Assembly (NCBI GenBank): GCA_004295055.1
Contig: SHNJ01000031.1
Span: 234,898 to 269,900 of the forward strand
Origin: Alphaproteobacteria bacterium
Lineage (GTDB): Bacteria; Pseudomonadota; Alphaproteobacteria; SHNJ01
Direction: 5' to 3'
Length of the DNA stretch: 35,003 nt
This document shows positions 7,867-15,763 of the stretch, piece after piece. Each line of letters begins with the position of its first letter. The stretch's first letter is position 1. The notes below the pieces were generated by a model that had not been told where the DNA came from, searched no databases, and saw nothing but the letters and a program-made list of their open reading frames with translations. The translations under genes were made by a program, and so were the position numbers.

Positions 7867-8814
7867 ATGACACGTGCATTCGTATTTCCGGGCCAGGGAT
7901 CGCAAGCCGTCGGCATGGGCAAGTCCATTTTCGAATCGTCTGCCAAGGCGCGCGAAGTGTTTGGCGAAGTCGACGAGGCGTTAAAGCAGAATCTATCGAA
8001 ATTGATGTTCGAAGGGCCAATCGAAGAATTGACCCAAACCGAAAACGCGCAACCGGCTTTGCTGGCAGTCAGTATGGCATTGTTGTCGGCGATGGAAAAA
8101 GAAGCCAATATCAAATTGACCAATGCAGCGAAATTCGTGGCCGGGCACAGCTTGGGCGAATATTCGGCCCTATGCGCGAATCGCACTTTCAGTTTAACAG
8201 AAGCGGCCAAGTTATTGAAATTACGTGGACAAGCGATGCAAAAAGCGGTGCCGAACGGCATTGGCGCCATGGCGGCCTTATTGGGCATGAATTTGGAACA
8301 AGCGCAAGAAGTCGCAAAACTTGCCAGCAATGGCAAGGGCGAAATTTGCGTGGCGGCGAACGACAACTCGCCGGAACAAGTGGTGATCAGTGGGCACAAG
8401 GTTGCGGTGGAACGCGCACTTCCGATTGCCAAGGAACGCGGCGCGAAACGCGGACTGCTATTGCCGGTTACGGTGCCATCGCATTCGCCATTGATGGCAC
8501 CCGCCGCCGATACGATGCAACAAGCGCTCGTTAATACACGATTTGGCATGCCGTCTTTGCCGTTGGTTGCAAACGTCACGGCAAAGGCAGAACAAGATCC
8601 CAATAATTTGCGCAAATTGTTGGTCGAACAAATGACCAACATGGTCCGCTGGCGCGAATCGATTCAGTTTTTGAAATCCCAAGGCGTAACGCAGATTGTG
8701 GAAATCGGTTCGGGCAAAGTGCTAACGGGTTTGGTAAAACGCATTGATCCCGAAATCCAATTGGTCAATATTGAAGGCCCGGCGGATATCGAAACCTTTT
8801 TAAAAGGAATGTAA
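7867..8814 (+). CDS. fabD: Malonyl-CoA:ACP transacylase
   Basis: It transfers malonyl from CoA to acyl carrier protein, the entry step of type II fatty acid synthesis. There are 315 residues from the ATG at 7867. GQGSQ is at 9-13, the nucleophile S95 in GHSLGEYS, R120 in LKLRGQAMQ and the catalytic H206 in VPSHSPLM. An in-frame GTG lies at 7858, but MTRAFVFPGQGSQ is the usual N-terminus and purine-rich AAGGGG lies 9 nt before the ATG, so I use the ATG. It is followed directly by fabG with a 1-nt overlap (TAATG). Confidence 0.96.
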   Translation: MTRAFVFPGQGSQAVGMGKSIFESSAKAREVFGEVDEALKQNLSKLMFEGPIEELTQTENAQPALLAVSMALLSAMEKEANIKLTNAAKFVAGHSLGEYSALCANRTFSLTEAAKLLKLRGQAMQKAVPNGIGAMAALLGMNLEQAQEVAKLASNGKGEICVAANDNSPEQVVISGHKVAVERALPIAKERGAKRGLLLPVTVPSHSPLMAPAADTMQQALVNTRFGMPSLPLVANVTAKAEQDPNNLRKLLVEQMTNMVRWRESIQFLKSQGVTQIVEIGSGKVLTGLVKRIDPEIQLVNIEGPADIETFLKGM

Positions 8815-9551
8815 TGATGAATTTATCTGGAAAAACCGCATTGATTACTGGCGCTACGGGCGGCATTGGCGGCGCGATTGCAAAAAAATTGCATGCTGCC
8901 GGCGCAACGGTAATGTTGACTGGCACGCGTGTGGAAGTATTACAAAAACTAGCGGGTGAACTCGGCGATCGTGCGCATGTATTTCCAGTAAATTTATCCG
9001 ATGGTGCGGCGATCGATGGTTTGATTACCGAAGCCGAAACCAAATTAGGCAAAATCGATATCCTGATCGCCAATGCTGGCGTGACGCGCGATACGTTGTT
9101 GATGCGCATGAAAGACGAAGATTGGCAGCAAGTGATCGATATCAATTTAACCGGTACTTTCCGGTTGGTGCGCGCTGCGTTGCGCGGGATGATGAAAAAT
9201 CGTTATGGCCGTATTATTTCGGTTGGATCGGTGGTGGGTACCACCGGCAATCCAGGCCAAGCAAATTATTGTGCCTCGAAAGCAGGTTTGATCGGTTTTT
9301 CCAAGGCCTTGGCGCAAGAAGTCGCCAGCCGCAATATCACCGTGAACGTTATTGCGCCGGGATTCATCGAAACGCCGATGACCGATGTGTTGACACCAGA
9401 ACAAAAAGAAAAAATTCTCACCCGCATCCCGATGGGTAAAATGGGTACCGCGAATGATATCGCCGATACCGCTTTATTCCTGTCCAGCGATGCGGCGGGC
9501 TATATCACCGGCCAGACATTGCATGTGAATGGCGGCATGGCGATGATTTAA
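8814..9551 (+). CDS. fabG: 3-oxoacyl-ACP reductase
   Basis: This NADPH-dependent SDR reduces 3-oxoacyl-ACP during fatty acid elongation. It has 245 residues. The cofactor motif TGATGGIG is at 12-19 and NAG at 87-89; the catalytic residues are S139, Y152 and K156 (YCASK). Two consecutive ATG codons (8814 and 8817) could each start it; AAGGA lies just upstream inside the end of fabD. The conserved neighbour downstream would normally be acpP, but two carrier-like genes come first. Confidence 0.96.
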   Translation: MMNLSGKTALITGATGGIGGAIAKKLHAAGATVMLTGTRVEVLQKLAGELGDRAHVFPVNLSDGAAIDGLITEAETKLGKIDILIANAGVTRDTLLMRMKDEDWQQVIDINLTGTFRLVRAALRGMMKNRYGRIISVGSVVGTTGNPGQANYCASKAGLIGFSKALAQEVASRNITVNVIAPGFIETPMTDVLTPEQKEKILTRIPMGKMGTANDIADTALFLSSDAAGYITGQTLHVNGGMAMI

Positions 9552-9592
9552 TATCATCTTTTAAAACCCTGATTTTCTTATATTTCTATTCG

Positions 9593-9620
9593 TTGACATT
9601 AAAGAAACGAATATTATGAT
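9593..9620 (+). promoter_or_regulatory. Promoter ahead of the carrier-like gene pair
   Basis: TTGACA (9593-9598) and TATGAT (9615-9620) are 16 nt apart, a near-consensus sigma-70 promoter. It lies in the 99-nt gap after fabG and would start transcription near 9627, about 24 nt upstream of the first carrier-like gene. This shows that the pair need not rely on the fabD-fabG promoter. Confidence 0.7.
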
Positions 9621-9650
9621 GACGGCATAATATTTATCAGGAGAATATGC

Positions 9651-9968
9651 ATGACTACTACAGCACAGCCAGTAACCGCCTCTTTCGGCCAGCAAGAAAT
9701 TAACGACGGCGTTCGTGAAATTGTAATGGCGGCATTGAGCGTAGATAAAGCAGAATATAATCCAGCCTCAAGCTTTATTGATCTGGGAGCATCGTCTATG
9801 ACTGTGGGTGGCGGGAAGGGTGAGCCCACGGATGCCGTAGATATTCGGATGAGAGCAAACGCCATGTTTGGCGTTGAAGTAACAGAATTGAATTTGAGAT
9901 GGTCGCCGGAGCAGTTAGGCTTAACCGTTGCTGGTTTATTAAAAGCCACCAGCCGTTTTAGAACCTAA
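9651..9968 (+). CDS. Acyl-carrier-protein-like protein with insertion after the Ser motif
   Basis: This 105-residue protein resembles acyl carrier protein. Aligned by eye with the AcpP encoded 1 kb downstream, INDGVREIVMAAL matches helix I, and SSFIDLGASS (40-49) matches [10 protein letters not shown], putting the candidate phosphopantetheine serine at S49. DAVDIRMRANAMFGVEV (61-77) matches [17 protein letters not shown]. Between them is a Gly-rich insertion of about 10 residues (MTVGGGKGEPT) directly after the serine, where helix II should begin. Whether it is still modified is unclear. AGGAG (9639-9643) lies 7 nt before the ATG, and a promoter lies just upstream. The function is unknown. 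Confidence 0.7.
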   Translation: MTTTAQPVTASFGQQEINDGVREIVMAALSVDKAEYNPASSFIDLGASSMTVGGGKGEPTDAVDIRMRANAMFGVEVTELNLRWSPEQLGLTVAGLLKATSRFRT

Positions 9969-10050
9969 ATTCATAATTCTGTCATATATAAATGCTATTA
10001 CCACTCGACTTTTAAGAAAAATATTTAAGGTAGAGATGGAGAAGAAATAA

Positions 10051-10560
10051 ATGGCAGATTTAGATTTTGCGCAAATATTGGATACTGTAGCTCGTGCAAC
10101 GCATGGTTTCCGTTCGGATTATACGCCGAAGGACCCAATGGCTAATCTTTTATTTGTAAATAGACCCAGAGCTTACGAAACTGTTTCTGACATTGTTCGC
10201 AGAGAATTAGGTGTAGAAATTGCTTCTACCGATTTTGGCGCAATGGAAACAGTGGGTAGATTGGCAACTGCGATTGCCATGACTTTAGATCCCGATCAAG
10301 CAGTACCACAAATTGTTCAAACCGTGATTCGTGTTAATACTCAAAATCCTGCGCAGGTAATGCCTCTGGATGCGGAACTGACCAGGGATCGTATGCGTCC
10401 CGAAAGAACCATGAGTCCTGATGGAAGATTGTCAGCAATATTTGCTTGTGAAGAATATTTTGGCTTGGAAGGGCAAGATCCAAGCGTAGCATCGATTAGA
10501 ACCGGCGATAATTTGGTGGCTTATATACGGGAAGGGCTTCTGGCAAACGCTGGACGGTAA
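10051..10560 (+). CDS. Unknown protein, possibly two degenerate carrier-like repeats
   Basis: This 169-residue protein has no family that I firmly recognise. Two segments resemble the C-terminal two-thirds of a carrier protein. One is RAYETVSDIVRRELGVEIAS with ETVGRLATAI following; the other is GRLSAIFACEEYFGLEG with IRTGDNLVAYIREGL following. Both lack the DSL phosphopantetheine serine. AGA codons for arginine are frequent here (at least six), whereas fabD and fabG nearby favour CGC/CGT, which hints at acquisition. It lies 82 nt after the first carrier-like gene, with GGAGA upstream of the ATG. The carrier resemblance is a by-eye judgement and could be wrong. Confidence 0.6.
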   Translation: MADLDFAQILDTVARATHGFRSDYTPKDPMANLLFVNRPRAYETVSDIVRRELGVEIASTDFGAMETVGRLATAIAMTLDPDQAVPQIVQTVIRVNTQNPAQVMPLDAELTRDRMRPERTMSPDGRLSAIFACEEYFGLEGQDPSVASIRTGDNLVAYIREGLLANAGR

Positions 10561-10623
10561 TTATCCTAACCCCTTACTTATACACAATATTTCCTGGTTT
10601 TTCAGGCAGTAAGCGGAAAATAA

Positions 10624-10661
10624 TTGTCAAAATGGCAAAAAAACGGTATTGGATACCGTTT
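10624..10661 (+). promoter_or_regulatory. acpP upstream region with perfect palindrome
   Basis: AAACGGTA (10641-10648) and TACCGTTT (10654-10661) are perfect 8-bp inverted arms around TTGGA, 26 nt before the acpP ATG. TTGTCA at 10624-10629 could be a -35 box with a weak -10 (TATTGG) 17 nt later, inside the palindrome. That layout would suit a repressor operator. Read on the minus strand, the same hairpin is followed by a T-run, so a terminator is the alternative. Confidence 0.5.
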
Positions 10662-10687
10662 GAATTAACCCAATAAGAGGTAAAACA

Positions 10688-10921
10688 ATGTCTGATGTAC
10701 AAGAACGCGTAAAGAAAATTATCGTCGAGCATTTGGGCGTGGAAGACGGCAAAGTCACCACCAACGCCAGCTTTATCGATGATTTAGGGGCAGACAGCCT
10801 CGATACCGTTGAGTTGGTAATGGCGTTCGAAGAAGAGTTCGGTTGCGAGATTCCGGACGAAGCGGCGGAAAAAATTCTGACCGTTAAAGACGCTGTCGAT
10901 TACATCCAACAGCACGCCTAA
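10688..10921 (+). CDS. acpP: Acyl carrier protein
   Basis: This is the canonical 77-residue acidic carrier of fatty acid synthesis. The 4'-phosphopantetheine serine is S37 in [10 protein letters not shown], followed by the [12 protein letters not shown] recognition helix. AGAGG (10676-10680) lies 7 nt before the ATG. It is followed by fabF after 31 nt. Compared with the two carrier-like proteins upstream, it has the complete DSL motif and normal length, so it is the housekeeping carrier. Confidence 0.98.
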
Positions 10922-10952
10922 TTCTAGGCCCTTCGTTGCTGTTCATCGCATA

Positions 10953-12215
10953 ATGAGAAGAGTCGTCATCACCGGACTTGGTTTGGTAACGCCGCTTGGT
11001 TGCGGCGCCAAACACGTATGGCCGCGCCTGCTTGCGGGGGAATCCGGCTTGCGCCAAATTCAGGCGTTCGATGTATCGGATCTGCCGGCGAAAATAGGCG
11101 GAACCTTGCCGCCCGGCGCATCGGCTGATGGATTCTTCAATGCCGATGATTATGTTCCGGCCAAAGACCGCCGCCGCATGGGCGATTTTATCGTGTATGC
11201 GATGGCCGCCGCGCAGCAAGCGATCGAAGACGCCAGTTGGAAACCCACGGCGGAAAATGAATTGGAACGCACCGGCGTTCTGGTCGGGTCCGGCATCGGC
11301 GGTTTGGTGGAAATTGCCGAAGGCGCCAATATTTTGGCCGAAGGCGGTCCACGCAAAATCAGCCCATTCTTTATTCCATCGGCTTTGATCAATTTGGCTT
11401 CTGGCCAGATTTCGATTAAATACGGATTCAAAGGCCCGAATCATGCGGTGGTTACCGCTTGTTCCACAGGCGCGCATGCGATCGGCGATGCCGCACGCAT
11501 GATTATGCTGGATGATGCGGATGTAATGGTTGCCGGCGGCGCCGAAGCCACGATTTGCCGTTTGGCGATTGCTGGATTTTCTCAAGCGCGCGCGCTTTCG
11601 ACCGGTTTCAATGACACGCCAACCCGCGCATCGCGCCCATGGGATAAAGACCGCGACGGATTCGTGATGGGCGAGGGTGCTGGCGTTGTTGTATTAGAAG
11701 AATACGAACACGCCAAAAAACGCGGCGCCAAAATTTATGGCGAAGTCGCTGGATATGGTTTGTCCGGCGATGCGCACCATATTACCGCGCCGCCCGAAGA
11801 CGGCAATGGCGCTTTCCGCGCGATGCAAGCGGCGTTGAAACGCGCGCATGTCAATCCATCGGATATTGATTATATCAATGCACACGGCACATCGACGCCG
11901 CTGGGCGATGAAATCGAAGTCAAAGCGGTCAAACGTTTATTCGGCGATCATGCCTATAAATTGTCGATGTCGTCGACCAAATCGTCGATCGGGCATTTGC
12001 TAGGCGCGGCTGGAAGCGTTGAGGCAATTTTCAGCATCATGGCAATTAACGATAATGTCTGTCCGCCAACCTTAAATTTGGAAAACCCGTCGGATGGATG
12101 CGATTTGGATTTCGTTCCGAACCAGGCTAAACAACGTAAAGTAAACGTAGCCTTGTCCAATTCCTTTGGTTTCGGCGGGACCAACGCCAGTTTGGTCTTC
12201 AAACGGGTCGGTTAA
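10953..12215 (+). CDS. fabF: 3-oxoacyl-ACP synthase II
   Basis: This beta-ketoacyl-ACP synthase condenses malonyl-ACP with acyl-ACP during elongation. It has 420 residues with the thiolase fold and the Cys-His-His triad C170 (TACSTGAH), H311 (NAHGTSTPLGD) and H348 (SIGHLLGAAG). The C-terminal Gly-rich NSFGFGGTNAS is present. No strong ribosome binding site precedes the ATG at 10953, but MRRVVITGLGLVTPLG is the expected N-terminus. Its stop is only 4 nt from the stop of the convergent decarboxylase gene. Confidence 0.97.
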   Translation: MRRVVITGLGLVTPLGCGAKHVWPRLLAGESGLRQIQAFDVSDLPAKIGGTLPPGASADGFFNADDYVPAKDRRRMGDFIVYAMAAAQQAIEDASWKPTAENELERTGVLVGSGIGGLVEIAEGANILAEGGPRKISPFFIPSALINLASGQISIKYGFKGPNHAVVTACSTGAHAIGDAARMIMLDDADVMVAGGAEATICRLAIAGFSQARALSTGFNDTPTRASRPWDKDRDGFVMGEGAGVVVLEEYEHAKKRGAKIYGEVAGYGLSGDAHHITAPPEDGNGAFRAMQAALKRAHVNPSDIDYINAHGTSTPLGDEIEVKAVKRLFGDHAYKLSMSSTKSSIGHLLGAAGSVEAIFSIMAINDNVCPPTLNLENPSDGCDLDFVPNQAKQRKVNVALSNSFGFGGTNASLVFKRVG

Positions 12216-12219
12216 TAAA

Positions 12220-13497
12220 TTACCGGCCAAATCTCTCAGGTTTTTTTACTGGTAAAACCTGCATCATACTCGTACGGCTCATTCTATCAAAAGCTCGTGC
12301 TGTTTTTTGAATAATAGTTTTTGTAATTTCGCGTTTAGGAGTAATAACAATTCTTAAACCGTGTATGCTTCTATCTACTGTTTCGAGATGAAGTTTTCCA
12401 ACGGCCAGTCCGTGAACTTCGCTTAGCAGATTTTGATAATTGACGGCCCGAATTTGTGCGATGCATTCCGCGGTTTGCTCGGGAGTGTCGGTAATTGGTT
12501 CGCCATTTCGCATCCCCATATCCACGGCTATGATAGTGGTTTCCAGAGGTGCTACTAAATCATATCCCGCTTTTTGAATGCTAGTGCTTAGACTTTTGGC
12601 CCAGCGATGGCGTGTCTCGGCTATTTTCCTAACTCCTTCAATGCCGTTCCACATTTGTATGGTTTTCCAAGCGACCGCGATTGGGAATCCACCACGCGTT
12701 GTACCAAACTGAGTCTGCAATCCAGGAAAATAATGTTGATCTGGTAAATTGGTAGATTTTATATGGGATTCTTTTACAAATAATAAACTTAAATCCATAA
12801 CCCCGACGAATTTGTGGGGGTCGATCATGACTGAATCTGCGTTTGCCAATAATAGACGAGTCGTTTCATTGCTGGCAGTTAAATGGGCTTGGATTCCCAT
12901 GGCTGCATCTACATGTAGCCATATCTTTTTTTCTTTTAATAAGGCGGCTATCTCGGGGTCAAAGGGGAAATCATTCATAGTGCCAAGCTGTGTCGTCCCT
13001 ATAGTGACGACTAGACAGCTAACGCGGTCGCCATGATCCTTTAAAAAGCGAATTAGGTCCTCGCGCGGAACACGAAAATTACAGTTGCGGGAGCAATAAA
13101 TAGGTTGTGCCGTTTGTTTAGTAATGTGGCATGCCTGGGCGATCGATTTGTGAGAAAGGTCGCTGCAAATGACCAAGTCTCTATTATTATGATTAGCGGC
13201 TAAACTAATTGCGTGCAGGTTGCTAGTGGTGCCGTTATTAAATGGCACTCCAACAACATTTTCTAGGCTAAGAATTTGGGTGCTGATAAAGTCACAGAAC
13301 TCTGTACGAATTCCATCTAATTCTATATCGCTGCAGTCGGTTAAACTGCGGTCAGTAAATCGCAACCCAAATCGTTTAGCGGTAAGCGTGCTTCGCGGCG
13401 CCATCAACCACAGATTGGTGCCGCGGCCGTCGGATATGCCTGAATCATGCGACGAAGAACTATCTGGGTTTGGCTCTCGTGTAGGGATGGCAATCAT
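12220..13497 (-). CDS. Group II PLP-dependent decarboxylase-like protein (copy 1)
   Basis: This 425-residue fold-type I PLP enzyme resembles group II amino acid decarboxylases. It has a Gly/Ser-rich cofactor region NNGTTSNLHA (87-96), H116 in LSHKS in the place of the PLP-stacking histidine, GTTQLG (167-172), D197 in WLHVDAA and the PLP lysine K229 in DPHKFVG. The substrate cannot be told from sequence. It shares many aligned motifs with the protein at 14558-15763 but has about 25 extra N-terminal residues. AAGGA lies 7 nt before the ATG. It follows a 48-codon small gene by 53 nt and probably shares its promoter at 13759-13787. Fold and cofactor are well supported; the reaction is inferred. 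Confidence 0.85.
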   Translation of the reverse strand: MIAIPTREPNPDSSSSHDSGISDGRGTNLWLMAPRSTLTAKRFGLRFTDRSLTDCSDIELDGIRTEFCDFISTQILSLENVVGVPFNNGTTSNLHAISLAANHNNRDLVICSDLSHKSIAQACHITKQTAQPIYCSRNCNFRVPREDLIRFLKDHGDRVSCLVVTIGTTQLGTMNDFPFDPEIAALLKEKKIWLHVDAAMGIQAHLTASNETTRLLLANADSVMIDPHKFVGVMDLSLLFVKESHIKSTNLPDQHYFPGLQTQFGTTRGGFPIAVAWKTIQMWNGIEGVRKIAETRHRWAKSLSTSIQKAGYDLVAPLETTIIAVDMGMRNGEPITDTPEQTAECIAQIRAVNYQNLLSEVHGLAVGKLHLETVDRSIHGLRIVITPKREITKTIIQKTARAFDRMSRTSMMQVLPVKKPERFGR

Positions 13498-13550
13498 TAA
13501 TTTTCCTTTACGGTAACTTATGTAAATTAATGATTGTTGTCAATAAGGAT

Positions 13551-13697
13551 CTATTTGTTTTGTTTTTTTTCAATGGAGTTTTTAAAGCGCTGTTGTTGTT
13601 TTAGTTCAACTAAAAGACGCAAATTGATTTGTTCTAACTCAAATAAAAGCTTAGAAAAATCAATATCTTGTGCAATTAATGGATTAATATTCTTCAT
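13551..13697 (-). CDS. Small 48-residue protein upstream of decarboxylase copy 1
   Basis: This short gene runs from the ATG at 13695-13697 to a TAG at 13551-13553. It encodes 48 residues, starting MKNINPLIAQ and ending with a Lys/Gln-rich tail. Residues 15-36 (SKLLFELEQINLRLLVELKQ in the middle) are predicted by eye to form an amphipathic helix, possibly a coiled coil. GGGAG lies 8 nt before the ATG, and a consensus-like promoter (TTGACA-17-TATTTT) lies about 60 nt upstream, which supports a real gene. No family is recognised. It is probably cotranscribed with the decarboxylase gene downstream. Confidence 0.65.
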   Translation of the reverse strand: MKNINPLIAQDIDFSKLLFELEQINLRLLVELKQQQRFKNSIEKKQNK

Positions 13698-13758
13698 CTC
13701 TTAGTCTCCCTGTCCAACTCGCTTTTGTTTAATTGCGGCTGTTGTAATTATGGTTAGT

Positions 13759-13787
13759 AAAATATACTTAAAGGAAACGGCTGTCAA
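13759..13787 (-). promoter_or_regulatory. Promoter for small gene and decarboxylase copy 1
   Basis: On the minus strand, TTGACA (13782-13787) and TATTTT (13759-13764) are separated by 17 nt. The start would be near 13752, giving a leader of about 55 nt before the small gene. Confidence 0.75.
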
Positions 13788-13812
13788 TACAAATTTAGCG
13801 TTTCTTACAGAG

Positions 13813-13857
13813 AAAATAAGGTTTTTTACCTTGTTTTAGGAAAATTTAAAGTATAAT
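13813..13857 (+). promoter_or_regulatory. Promoter and candidate operator of the XRE regulator gene
   Basis: A perfect -10 box TATAAT lies at 13852-13857, with a weak -35 (CTTGTT at 13830-13835, 16 nt spacing). An inverted repeat AAGGT (13818-13822)/ACCTT (13828-13832), extendable outward by A/T pairs, overlaps the -35 region. Because it lies between the divergent regulator and decarboxylase promoters, it could be the regulator's own binding site. This is inference. Confidence 0.5.
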
Positions 13858-13879
13858 ACTCTATTGGGAAATTTTTTTT

Positions 13880-14557
13880 ATGATCACAATTCAACAAGTA
13901 AAGGCGGCGCGTGCTCTGCTCGATTGGAAGCAATCTGATCTTGCCGATGCTTGTGGCCTTTCCTTAACTGCAATCAATAACTTAGAGCGCGGTATTGGTT
14001 CCCCACGCGTGGAAACCATTAATGCTATTCGGCAAACCCTAGAAAATGTTGGTATCGAATTCACGGATGGAGAAGGCGTGCGCAAACGCGGGGAAGTGAT
14101 TGAATTGCATGTGTTTGAAGGATCCCGCTTTATTACCTTGATGAACGATTATGCGTTCCCGTATTTAAAAGCATCTGGACAGAGCTTGATGTGCGGTATT
14201 GATGAAAGGCGTTTCGTCGAATACGGCAAGGAAGAAGTGAAGCGATATGACGATTTTATTCGTCAGAATAAGGTCGTTGAACGCATCATTATCCGGGAAA
14301 ATGACACCTACATTTTGTCTGATCCAAAAGCCTATCGTTGGGTTCCCGAAGGTTTGATTGGAAAAGTTCCATACATGATTTATGGCGAGGTATTCGTACT
14401 TATTATTTGGGACGCTAAGAAAACTATTTGCATTAGGAATGCATCATTGACAGACAGCTTTCACCGTCAATTTGAGTTTTTGTGGAGCATGGGGCGTGGC
14501 CTGCCGTCAGACGTCAGCCGCGCTTTGTCCCAGCCCGATTTTTACGGCGGATCTTAA
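13880..14557 (+). CDS. XRE-family transcriptional regulator with C-terminal sensor-like domain
   Basis: This 225-residue protein has an N-terminal helix-turn-helix of the XRE/HTH_3 type (residues 3-58; ALLDWKQSDLADACGLS, then AINNLERG). The C-terminal part (about 75-215) contains EYGKEEVKRYDDFIR, YRWVPEGLIGKVPYMIYGE and RQFEFLWSMG. These resemble the effector domain of TrmB-like regulators, a tentative assignment. It is divergent from the small gene and decarboxylase copy 1, and its stop abuts the stop of decarboxylase copy 2 with no gap. It probably regulates one or both decarboxylase units. The ligand is unknown. Confidence 0.85.
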   Translation: MITIQQVKAARALLDWKQSDLADACGLSLTAINNLERGIGSPRVETINAIRQTLENVGIEFTDGEGVRKRGEVIELHVFEGSRFITLMNDYAFPYLKASGQSLMCGIDERRFVEYGKEEVKRYDDFIRQNKVVERIIIRENDTYILSDPKAYRWVPEGLIGKVPYMIYGEVFVLIIWDAKKTICIRNASLTDSFHRQFEFLWSMGRGLPSDVSRALSQPDFYGGS

Positions 14558-15763
14558 TCAGGCCGCTATGTGGTCAGGCCGCGATGGATGGTTGGCCGGA
14601 ACTTCTGGGGCGATATACGATAAATTTTCCGATATCTGTCCTGGCAGGAGCGATTTCAAAATAGAATCCATTTTGCGCAGCCGGTCATAAAACAATTTCT
14701 TTGGCGCTGGGTTCATCATAAAGCGCAAAGAATGCTGACCATTAATTTCGCAAATATCCATATCAACGCCAATCATGCCGAATGAATCTTTCAGATAGTC
14801 ACCCAGCATCAAAGGCGAATCGAATTGGCGAATTTCCGGATGGTATAAATCAACCGCTACTACCCTGGTTTCTACAGGGCAGACCAATTTGAAGCCATGT
14901 TTAGTAAATATTTCCGCCATTTTTTGGGCGTTGCTGAAAACTTCCTTGGATAATTTTTCTAACATATAAATAGAGCCTGGCCGTTTCATCAAATGCCATG
15001 CCGCAGCTAATGCGTAGCCGCTTTGAGAGCTGCCAAACATGGTATAAGCACCAGCAAAATATTTTTGATCGGGCAATTTCGGCAATTTACCATCTTTAAA
15101 TCCAACCAAACTTAACCCCATAGGTCCAACCCATTTGTGCGGATTGACCGTCCAAGAGTCGGCGTGTTGCATTAACTGACGAATCTGTTGGTCTTTACGC
15201 CGCAATATTTCCGTATATCCAAAAGCTGCGTCAACATGCAGCCAGATAGGGTTGCCCAGGGCGCGTTGCTGTAGAATGAAATATTGCACCACATCGATAG
15301 GGAAATCGTATAATTTGCCATGCGCGGGTACGCCAATGGTTAACACAATTGTGCCAATTCGACCGCTAAGCTGATTCAATTTTTGAATCAATTCCTCGCG
15401 GTCCATTTCATATCCCAATTCTGCATGGCATGGGATTAATTCCAAATCCAGGGATTGTTTTTCTACCGCCTGGTGAATTGATTTGTGTGTGAAATTGCTG
15501 CCTACAACCAGTTTTTTGCCGGTGTGGTGATGGCCCGCTAGGATGGCGTAATCGTTGCTAAGCGTTCCTTTTTCCGTGGGAACCACATAAAAATTATTTA
15601 CTTGCAGAACTTTCTCTTGAAAAAAATCCAAGAAACTACGGCAAATGGATTGCATTTCGGTATTGCCTAAATCGGTAATCAATGCGGTATCGAATTCTGC
15701 GGCAAATTTTCTTGCGGCGTTATCATTGATCGCTTGGGTAACGCGAAAATTGAGTCTTTCCAT
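14558..15763 (-). CDS. Group II PLP-dependent decarboxylase-like protein (copy 2)
   Basis: This 401-residue fold-type I PLP enzyme is paralogous to the protein at 12220-13497. Matched motifs are TEKGTLSNDYA (63-73), H93 in FTHKS, D178 in WLHVDAA, the PLP lysine K210 in NPHKWVG, and DQKYFAGAYTMFG matching DQHYFPGLQTQFG. The GTT segment of copy 1 is GVPAHG here, so the active sites differ and the substrates may too. AAGGA lies 6 nt before the ATG, and a candidate promoter is 33 nt further upstream. The reaction is inferred; a decarboxylase or an amine-lyase-type activity are both possible. Confidence 0.85.
   Translation of the reverse strand: MERLNFRVTQAINDNAARKFAAEFDTALITDLGNTEMQSICRSFLDFFQEKVLQVNNFYVVPTEKGTLSNDYAILAGHHHTGKKLVVGSNFTHKSIHQAVEKQSLDLELIPCHAELGYEMDREELIQKLNQLSGRIGTIVLTIGVPAHGKLYDFPIDVVQYFILQQRALGNPIWLHVDAAFGYTEILRRKDQQIRQLMQHADSWTVNPHKWVGPMGLSLVGFKDGKLPKLPDQKYFAGAYTMFGSSQSGYALAAAWHLMKRPGSIYMLEKLSKEVFSNAQKMAEIFTKHGFKLVCPVETRVVAVDLYHPEIRQFDSPLMLGDYLKDSFGMIGVDMDICEINGQHSLRFMMNPAPKKLFYDRLRKMDSILKSLLPGQISENLSYIAPEVPANHPSRPDHIAA

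Follow-up and report, generated by a model that had tools for sequence, protein, structure and literature searches.

The acyl carrier protein AcpP of type II fatty-acid synthesis (PF00550) is the nearest point of comparison for the two proteins considered here, ORF1 and ORF2, whose genes are sited beside acpP. ORF1 shares with AcpP helix I and the DLGAxS motif and has a model that resembles the overall ACP fold, and the C-terminal half of ORF2 shares the helix II to IV pattern (..FACEEYFGLE..TGDNLVAYI..). Unlike AcpP, ORF1 scores below the Pfam cut-off, has 10 extra residues separating the serine from helix II, and has a helix II that is not acidic, while ORF2 has neither the DSL serine nor a match to PF00550. 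ORF1 also resembles the specialised ACPs PA3334 and RPA2022 (PDB 2lte and 2kw2) in being longer than AcpP and distinct from the housekeeping carrier. Both of these are structural matches of the ORF1 model, and no specific sequence relation to either was found.

A further point of reference is the serine-less mitochondrial ACP of Plasmodium (mACP), which binds Isd11-Nfs1 without phosphopantetheine and has a Phe in place of the Ser, modelled to pack against Isd11 (PMC8547962). This protein is a precedent for an ACP fold that works via a protein partner with no modifiable serine, as a functional analogy only; unlike the pair described here, it is eukaryotic and single-domain. For bacterial ACPs that lack the serine, literature searches turned up no direct match. 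Our leading interpretation, to which we give a probability of roughly 0.45, is that ORF1 and ORF2 represent a lineage-specific, fast-diverging offshoot of the ACP fold, most likely protein-binding or adaptor proteins and not fatty-acid acyl shuttles.

Layout of the fabG-acpP interval

The window, the whole stretch of 35,003 nucleotides that was analysed, lies on contig C31 of a 1.95-Mb, 99%-complete genome (G000), and its gene order points to Alphaproteobacteria. One further genome of the same order, from a sister genus (G001), was used for comparison. The features of the interval are collected in Table 1. The original prediction held that two genes separate fabG from acpP and that these are normally adjacent, and both points stand: ORF1 and ORF2 fill a gap of 1136 bp here, and the distance is 40-299 bp at 26 of 28 related loci where fabG and acpP were both located. 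G013, which is the other outlier, holds an unrelated opposite-strand ORF in its gap.

Table 1. Positions of features between fabG and acpP, numbered from the first letter of the window
Feature	Position	Strand	Basis
fabG	8814-9551		
Sigma-70-like promoter, TTGACA-16-TATGAT	9593-9620	+	Consensus match only
ORF1, 105-aa diverged ACP homologue, S49 kept	9651-9968	+	Profiles, shuffles, Smith-Waterman, AF2 model
Gly-rich in-frame insert of ORF1, 30 nt (TVGGGKGEPT)	9801-9830	+	Alignment and model
ORF2, 169-aa protein with two probable carrier-like domains	10051-10560	+	C-terminal half ACP-related; N-terminal half unproven
Original acpP upstream region, also conserved in G001	10561-10687	+	Alignment to the G001 gap
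acpP, normal acyl carrier protein (yardstick)	10688-10921	+	NCBIfam equivalog, 144.7 bits

The AcpP proteins of the window and of G001 are 99% identical. The fabG-acpP gap of G001 (158 bp) aligns to the 127 bp that immediately precede acpP in the window, with a score of 76 where the best shuffle reached 41, and the 100 bp that follow fabG here gave no alignment to that gap beyond chance. Since this alignment covers the acpP promoter region, the pair was inserted after fabG, upstream of an acpP promoter region that stayed intact. The empty site in the sister genus, the partly carrier-like character of ORF2 and the second cluster described below all go beyond the original prediction.

The prediction that the pair has its own near-consensus promoter was borne out as to the motif. 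TTGACA (9593-9598) and TATGAT (9615-9620), separated by a 16-nt spacer, match 11 of 12 consensus bases and form the best of four promoter-like matches in 9400-11100; shuffled sequences average 3.6 such matches, so the site is a plausible, unproven candidate promoter for the pair. ORF1 and ORF2 are preceded by the ribosome-binding sites AGGAG and GGAGAAG, respectively. Both frames are longer than expected by chance, an open frame of the length of ORF2 being reached in this spacer by only three of 1000 shuffles.

The base composition of the carrier-like genes is atypical, with a GC3 of 0.31-0.43 in G000, compared with 0.49-0.62 in resident genes, and of 0.44 in G001. GC content declines from codon position 1 to 3 in ORF1 and ORF2, as it does in coding DNA. 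Codon usage in the real frame of ORF2 is no better than in the other frames, and both genes fall below the resident genes. The low GC3 and, in G000, the poor codon fit of the carrier-like genes would suit a foreign origin, weakly expressed genes or relaxed constraint.

It is very unlikely that the pair is foreign cargo brought into the fab cluster by a phage or another mobile element. Carriage of acpP by phages is possible and fabG-acpP-fabF has been reported in prophages (PMC8224337), which together with the base composition would fit such an origin, as would the matches to PHROG families of C26A and G001 proteins (see below) and the presence of an unrelated gene set, absent from relatives, between fabF and mltG. 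However, no integrase, repeats or att-like ends were recognised around the pair, neither ORF1 nor ORF2 has a match in phage or PHROG collections, ORF2 has none in viral contigs either, and the G001 counterpart of the family retains the same flanking genes. Searches with ORF2 of 385 genomes of the class, GTDB contigs, viral contigs and phages returned the window itself or chance-level matches only. Those with ORF1 covered 96 genomes as well as GTDB contigs, plasmids and phages, and returned the window itself, chance-level matches (the only kind among plasmids) or, in G022, the normal acpP of that genome.

A perfect 9-bp inverted repeat, AAACGGTAT-TGG-ATACCGTTT, lies at 10641-10661, upstream of acpP. 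It is not conserved in G001 and could be an operator or a weak terminator. Part of this repeat (13 nt, 92%) is found again inside ORF2, at 10076-10088.

Relationship of ORF1 and ORF2 to acyl carrier proteins

The relation to carrier proteins for which a profile search had been suggested was recovered for ORF1, which matched NCBIfam acyl carrier models with an E-value of 8e-5 and PF00550 with 17.2 bits, under the curated cut-off of 20.8. Against an ACP HMM built from 30 AcpP sequences and two further carriers, ORF1 scored 22.7 bits, a value reached by none of 3000 shuffles, and its Smith-Waterman comparison with AcpP gave Z = 9.4. Judged from these sequence comparisons, ORF1 is a true but diverged ACP homologue. 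The DLGASS motif does contain the expected serine site, in that S49 aligns to the attachment serine invariant in 25 sequences, and its neighbours are altered, reading S-S-M for D-S-L (Asp to Ser before the serine, Leu to Met after it). An alignment with 24 ACPs likewise located the Gly-rich insertion of about 10 residues that had been noticed after the serine; it is TVGGGKGEPT, residues 51-60, and begins one residue past S49. The corresponding 30 nt are 70% GC, compared with 45% for the remainder of ORF1, and rank among the GC-richest 30-mers of the spacer; no second copy was found within the window.

In the AlphaFold (AF2) model of ORF1, helix I spans residues 14-29, helix II residues 61-73 and the last helix residues 93-102. 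The onset of helix II is pushed to residue 61, 12 residues after S49, in keeping with the proposal that the insertion falls where the recognition helix starts. Residues 50-57 have a pLDDT under 50, indicating a disordered insert, and the mean of 67.8 is moderate. The matches listed by Foldseek in the PDB are all carrier proteins or carrier-containing complexes, with probability 1.00, TM scores of 0.6-0.8 and a best E-value of 0.037. Since the model was guided by ACP rows in its alignment, the outcome of the structure prediction put forward as a check represents consistency with an ACP fold and not independent proof. Helix II of ORF1 holds two acidic residues and has a net charge of 0, compared with five and -5 in AcpP. 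Taken together, the model and the charge count indicate that ORF1 has neither a serine at the start of helix II nor an acidic recognition helix. The phrase 'specialised or non-functional acyl carrier', used originally of the first protein, fits ORF1 as an ACP homologue with a displaced serine and a lost acidic surface, and the interpretation as a whole is supported in part.

That ORF1 is a working specialised carrier, with the loop serine S49 modified by AcpS, a dedicated enzyme for loading and ORF2 as an accessory, appears somewhat unlikely but is a serious alternative. The retention of DLGAxS and S49, the predicted ACP fold, the promoter-like site of the pair's own and the existence of specialised ACPs of unusual length, with PA3334 and RPA2022 among those in the fold search, are set against substitutions on both sides of the serine, an insert at the very position read by AcpS and a helix II that is not acidic. 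Moreover, the 99%-complete genome yielded one ketosynthase hit (FabF) and one phosphopantetheinyl transferase (PPTase), so no second carrier-dependent synthase is evident, and the fab genes are the only same-orientation biosynthetic neighbours of the pair.

For ORF2, the relationship lies in the C-terminal half (approximately residues 81-169), which scored 10.6 bits against the ACP HMM (0 of 3000 shuffles) and gave a Smith-Waterman Z of 7.0 with AcpP and p = 0.003 with a constrained PSSM. On these profile and alignment scores the C-terminal half is ACP-related. It reads SPD at the DSL position, and the whole protein is devoid of a DSL-type motif. ORF2 did not match PF00550 up to E 10, and weak NCBIfam acyl-carrier matches fall in residues 130-161 (E 0.09). 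The N-terminal half is alike by eye and predicted to be helical; as an ACP domain it failed the tests applied (constrained PSSM p = 0.45). An AlphaFold model of ORF2 alone had a pLDDT of 41, and its PDB matches were meaningless.

The carrier-like cluster on contig C26

A domain profile search of the genome revealed one further place of this kind, C26:4240-6203, with approximately six domains encoded by three genes. The products are a 291-aa protein with about three domains, a DSL carrier of 122 aa and, with about two domains, a 200-aa protein. The cluster has one normal DSL carrier, and its other domains are without the DSL serine. The profile was built from these domains, so their own matches to it are not independent evidence. 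A relation to ACP is secure for the DSL carrier and for the middle one of the three domains of the 291-aa protein, whose score none of 2000 shuffles reached. It is marginal for the last of those three (p = 0.009) and for domain 1 of the 200-aa protein (p = 0.02), and unproven for the remaining domains. Searches of 385 genomes of the class gave no match for C26A and a single marginal one for C26C (E 9.7e-5), with two stops inside.

The positional counterpart in G001 is one 247-aa protein (C59) with a DSL carrier domain. In both genera the carriers are flanked by a conserved small gene and by a gene that we take to be 4-hydroxyphenylpyruvate dioxygenase (HPPD)-like. The flanking genes of the two genomes are 65% and 70% identical, whereas the carriers between them share 49% identity over 39 aa only. 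The carriers thus diverge far faster than their neighbours and, as the flanks are the same, a fast-evolving carrier-like family has been kept in two genera. Like the pair, the C26 and C59 proteins are multi-domain, mostly without the DSL serine and atypical in GC3; unlike the pair, they lie between the HPPD-like gene and the small ORF, and each locus has one DSL-type domain. ORF1 and ORF2 are probably a further branch of this family, with no clear one-to-one orthology to C26 or C59. Pairwise Z scores did not support one-to-one orthology with individual C26 domains, and the Gly-rich insert common to ORF1 (GGGKGE) and domain 1 of C26A (GEGGGW) is not matched by a similarity of the two as a whole (p = 0.39).

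The persistence of this family bears on whether the pair could consist of decaying ACP duplicates that have lost their function and are drifting toward pseudogenes, which we regard as unlikely but as a serious alternative. Decay would account for the extreme divergence of the pair beside a 99% conserved AcpP, for the poor codon usage and low GC3 given above, for the absence of the pair at this site in the sister genome and for a GC-rich 30-nt insert at a key site of ORF1. Against it stand intact frames of above-shuffle length, good ribosome-binding sites, a coding-like fall in GC from codon position 1 to 3, and the fact that both genera have kept such a family at the HPPD locus.

Within the cluster, at L009 5290-6203 (G000:C26), the gene for the DSL carrier overlaps the carrier-like gene that follows it, in another frame. 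A single fused ORF of 247 aa occupies this place in the sister genus; a frameshift or fission is possible. The small conserved gene beside the cluster (L009 6282-6587 and L012 2148-2456) encodes approximately 101 aa, 70% identical between the genera, and its G000 copy had no Pfam or NCBIfam match.

Possible roles of the pair

The most cautious statement is that ORF1 and half of ORF2 derive from ACP, with the features that receive phosphopantetheine and dock enzymes changed. In the offshoot interpretation favoured here, ORF1 would keep the ACP fold and the serine, a flexible Gly-rich loop would move that serine off the start of helix II, and the helix itself would be without the acidic face that ACPs present when they dock to AcpS or the enzymes of fatty-acid synthesis. 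ORF2 would contribute at least one ACP-like domain without the DSL serine. We infer that both proteins have lost the carrier role and act as partner-binding or adaptor versions of the fold. A partner-binding role is the likeliest because the family has been kept and expanded while cofactor sites were lost, and because a partner-binding, serine-less ACP is known (PMC8547962). Counting against an adaptor function, S49 is still present in ORF1 and open to modification, and the atypical codon usage of the pair also fits relaxed constraint.

A broader version, by analogy, is that a bacterial lineage turned the ACP fold into a multi-copy adaptor family, largely free of phosphopantetheine, whose members bind partners independently of acyl chains. 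This is doubtful; it would involve approximately eight extra domains without the DSL motif, in addition to a normal AcpP and a single further carrier of the DSL type. The pair and the second cluster do suggest reuse of the carrier fold outside ordinary fatty-acid synthesis. If the adaptor proteins favoured here are produced and do have binding partners, bacteria would possess carrier-fold proteins that work without the cofactor defining their family, and these would offer a natural experiment on the need for an acidic helix II and for the position of the serine. They would also explain how about ten carrier-like domains persist in a genome that has only one synthase and one PPTase.

The suggestion that the pair serves a pathway tied to the nearby decarboxylases found no support, as these genes lie past fabF on the opposite strand, the first of them had no counterpart in the 58 other genomes searched, and none occurs among the neighbours read at the C26 and G001 carrier clusters. 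The set (12220-15763), which lies between fabF and mltG, comprises an HTH regulator gene and, on either side of it, PLP decarboxylase-like genes that are 35% identical to each other. Elsewhere in the window, positions 1782-2411 encode a predicted secreted protein with a PEP-CTERM-like tail (PSPGAPVLLGFAGLLANRRRR).
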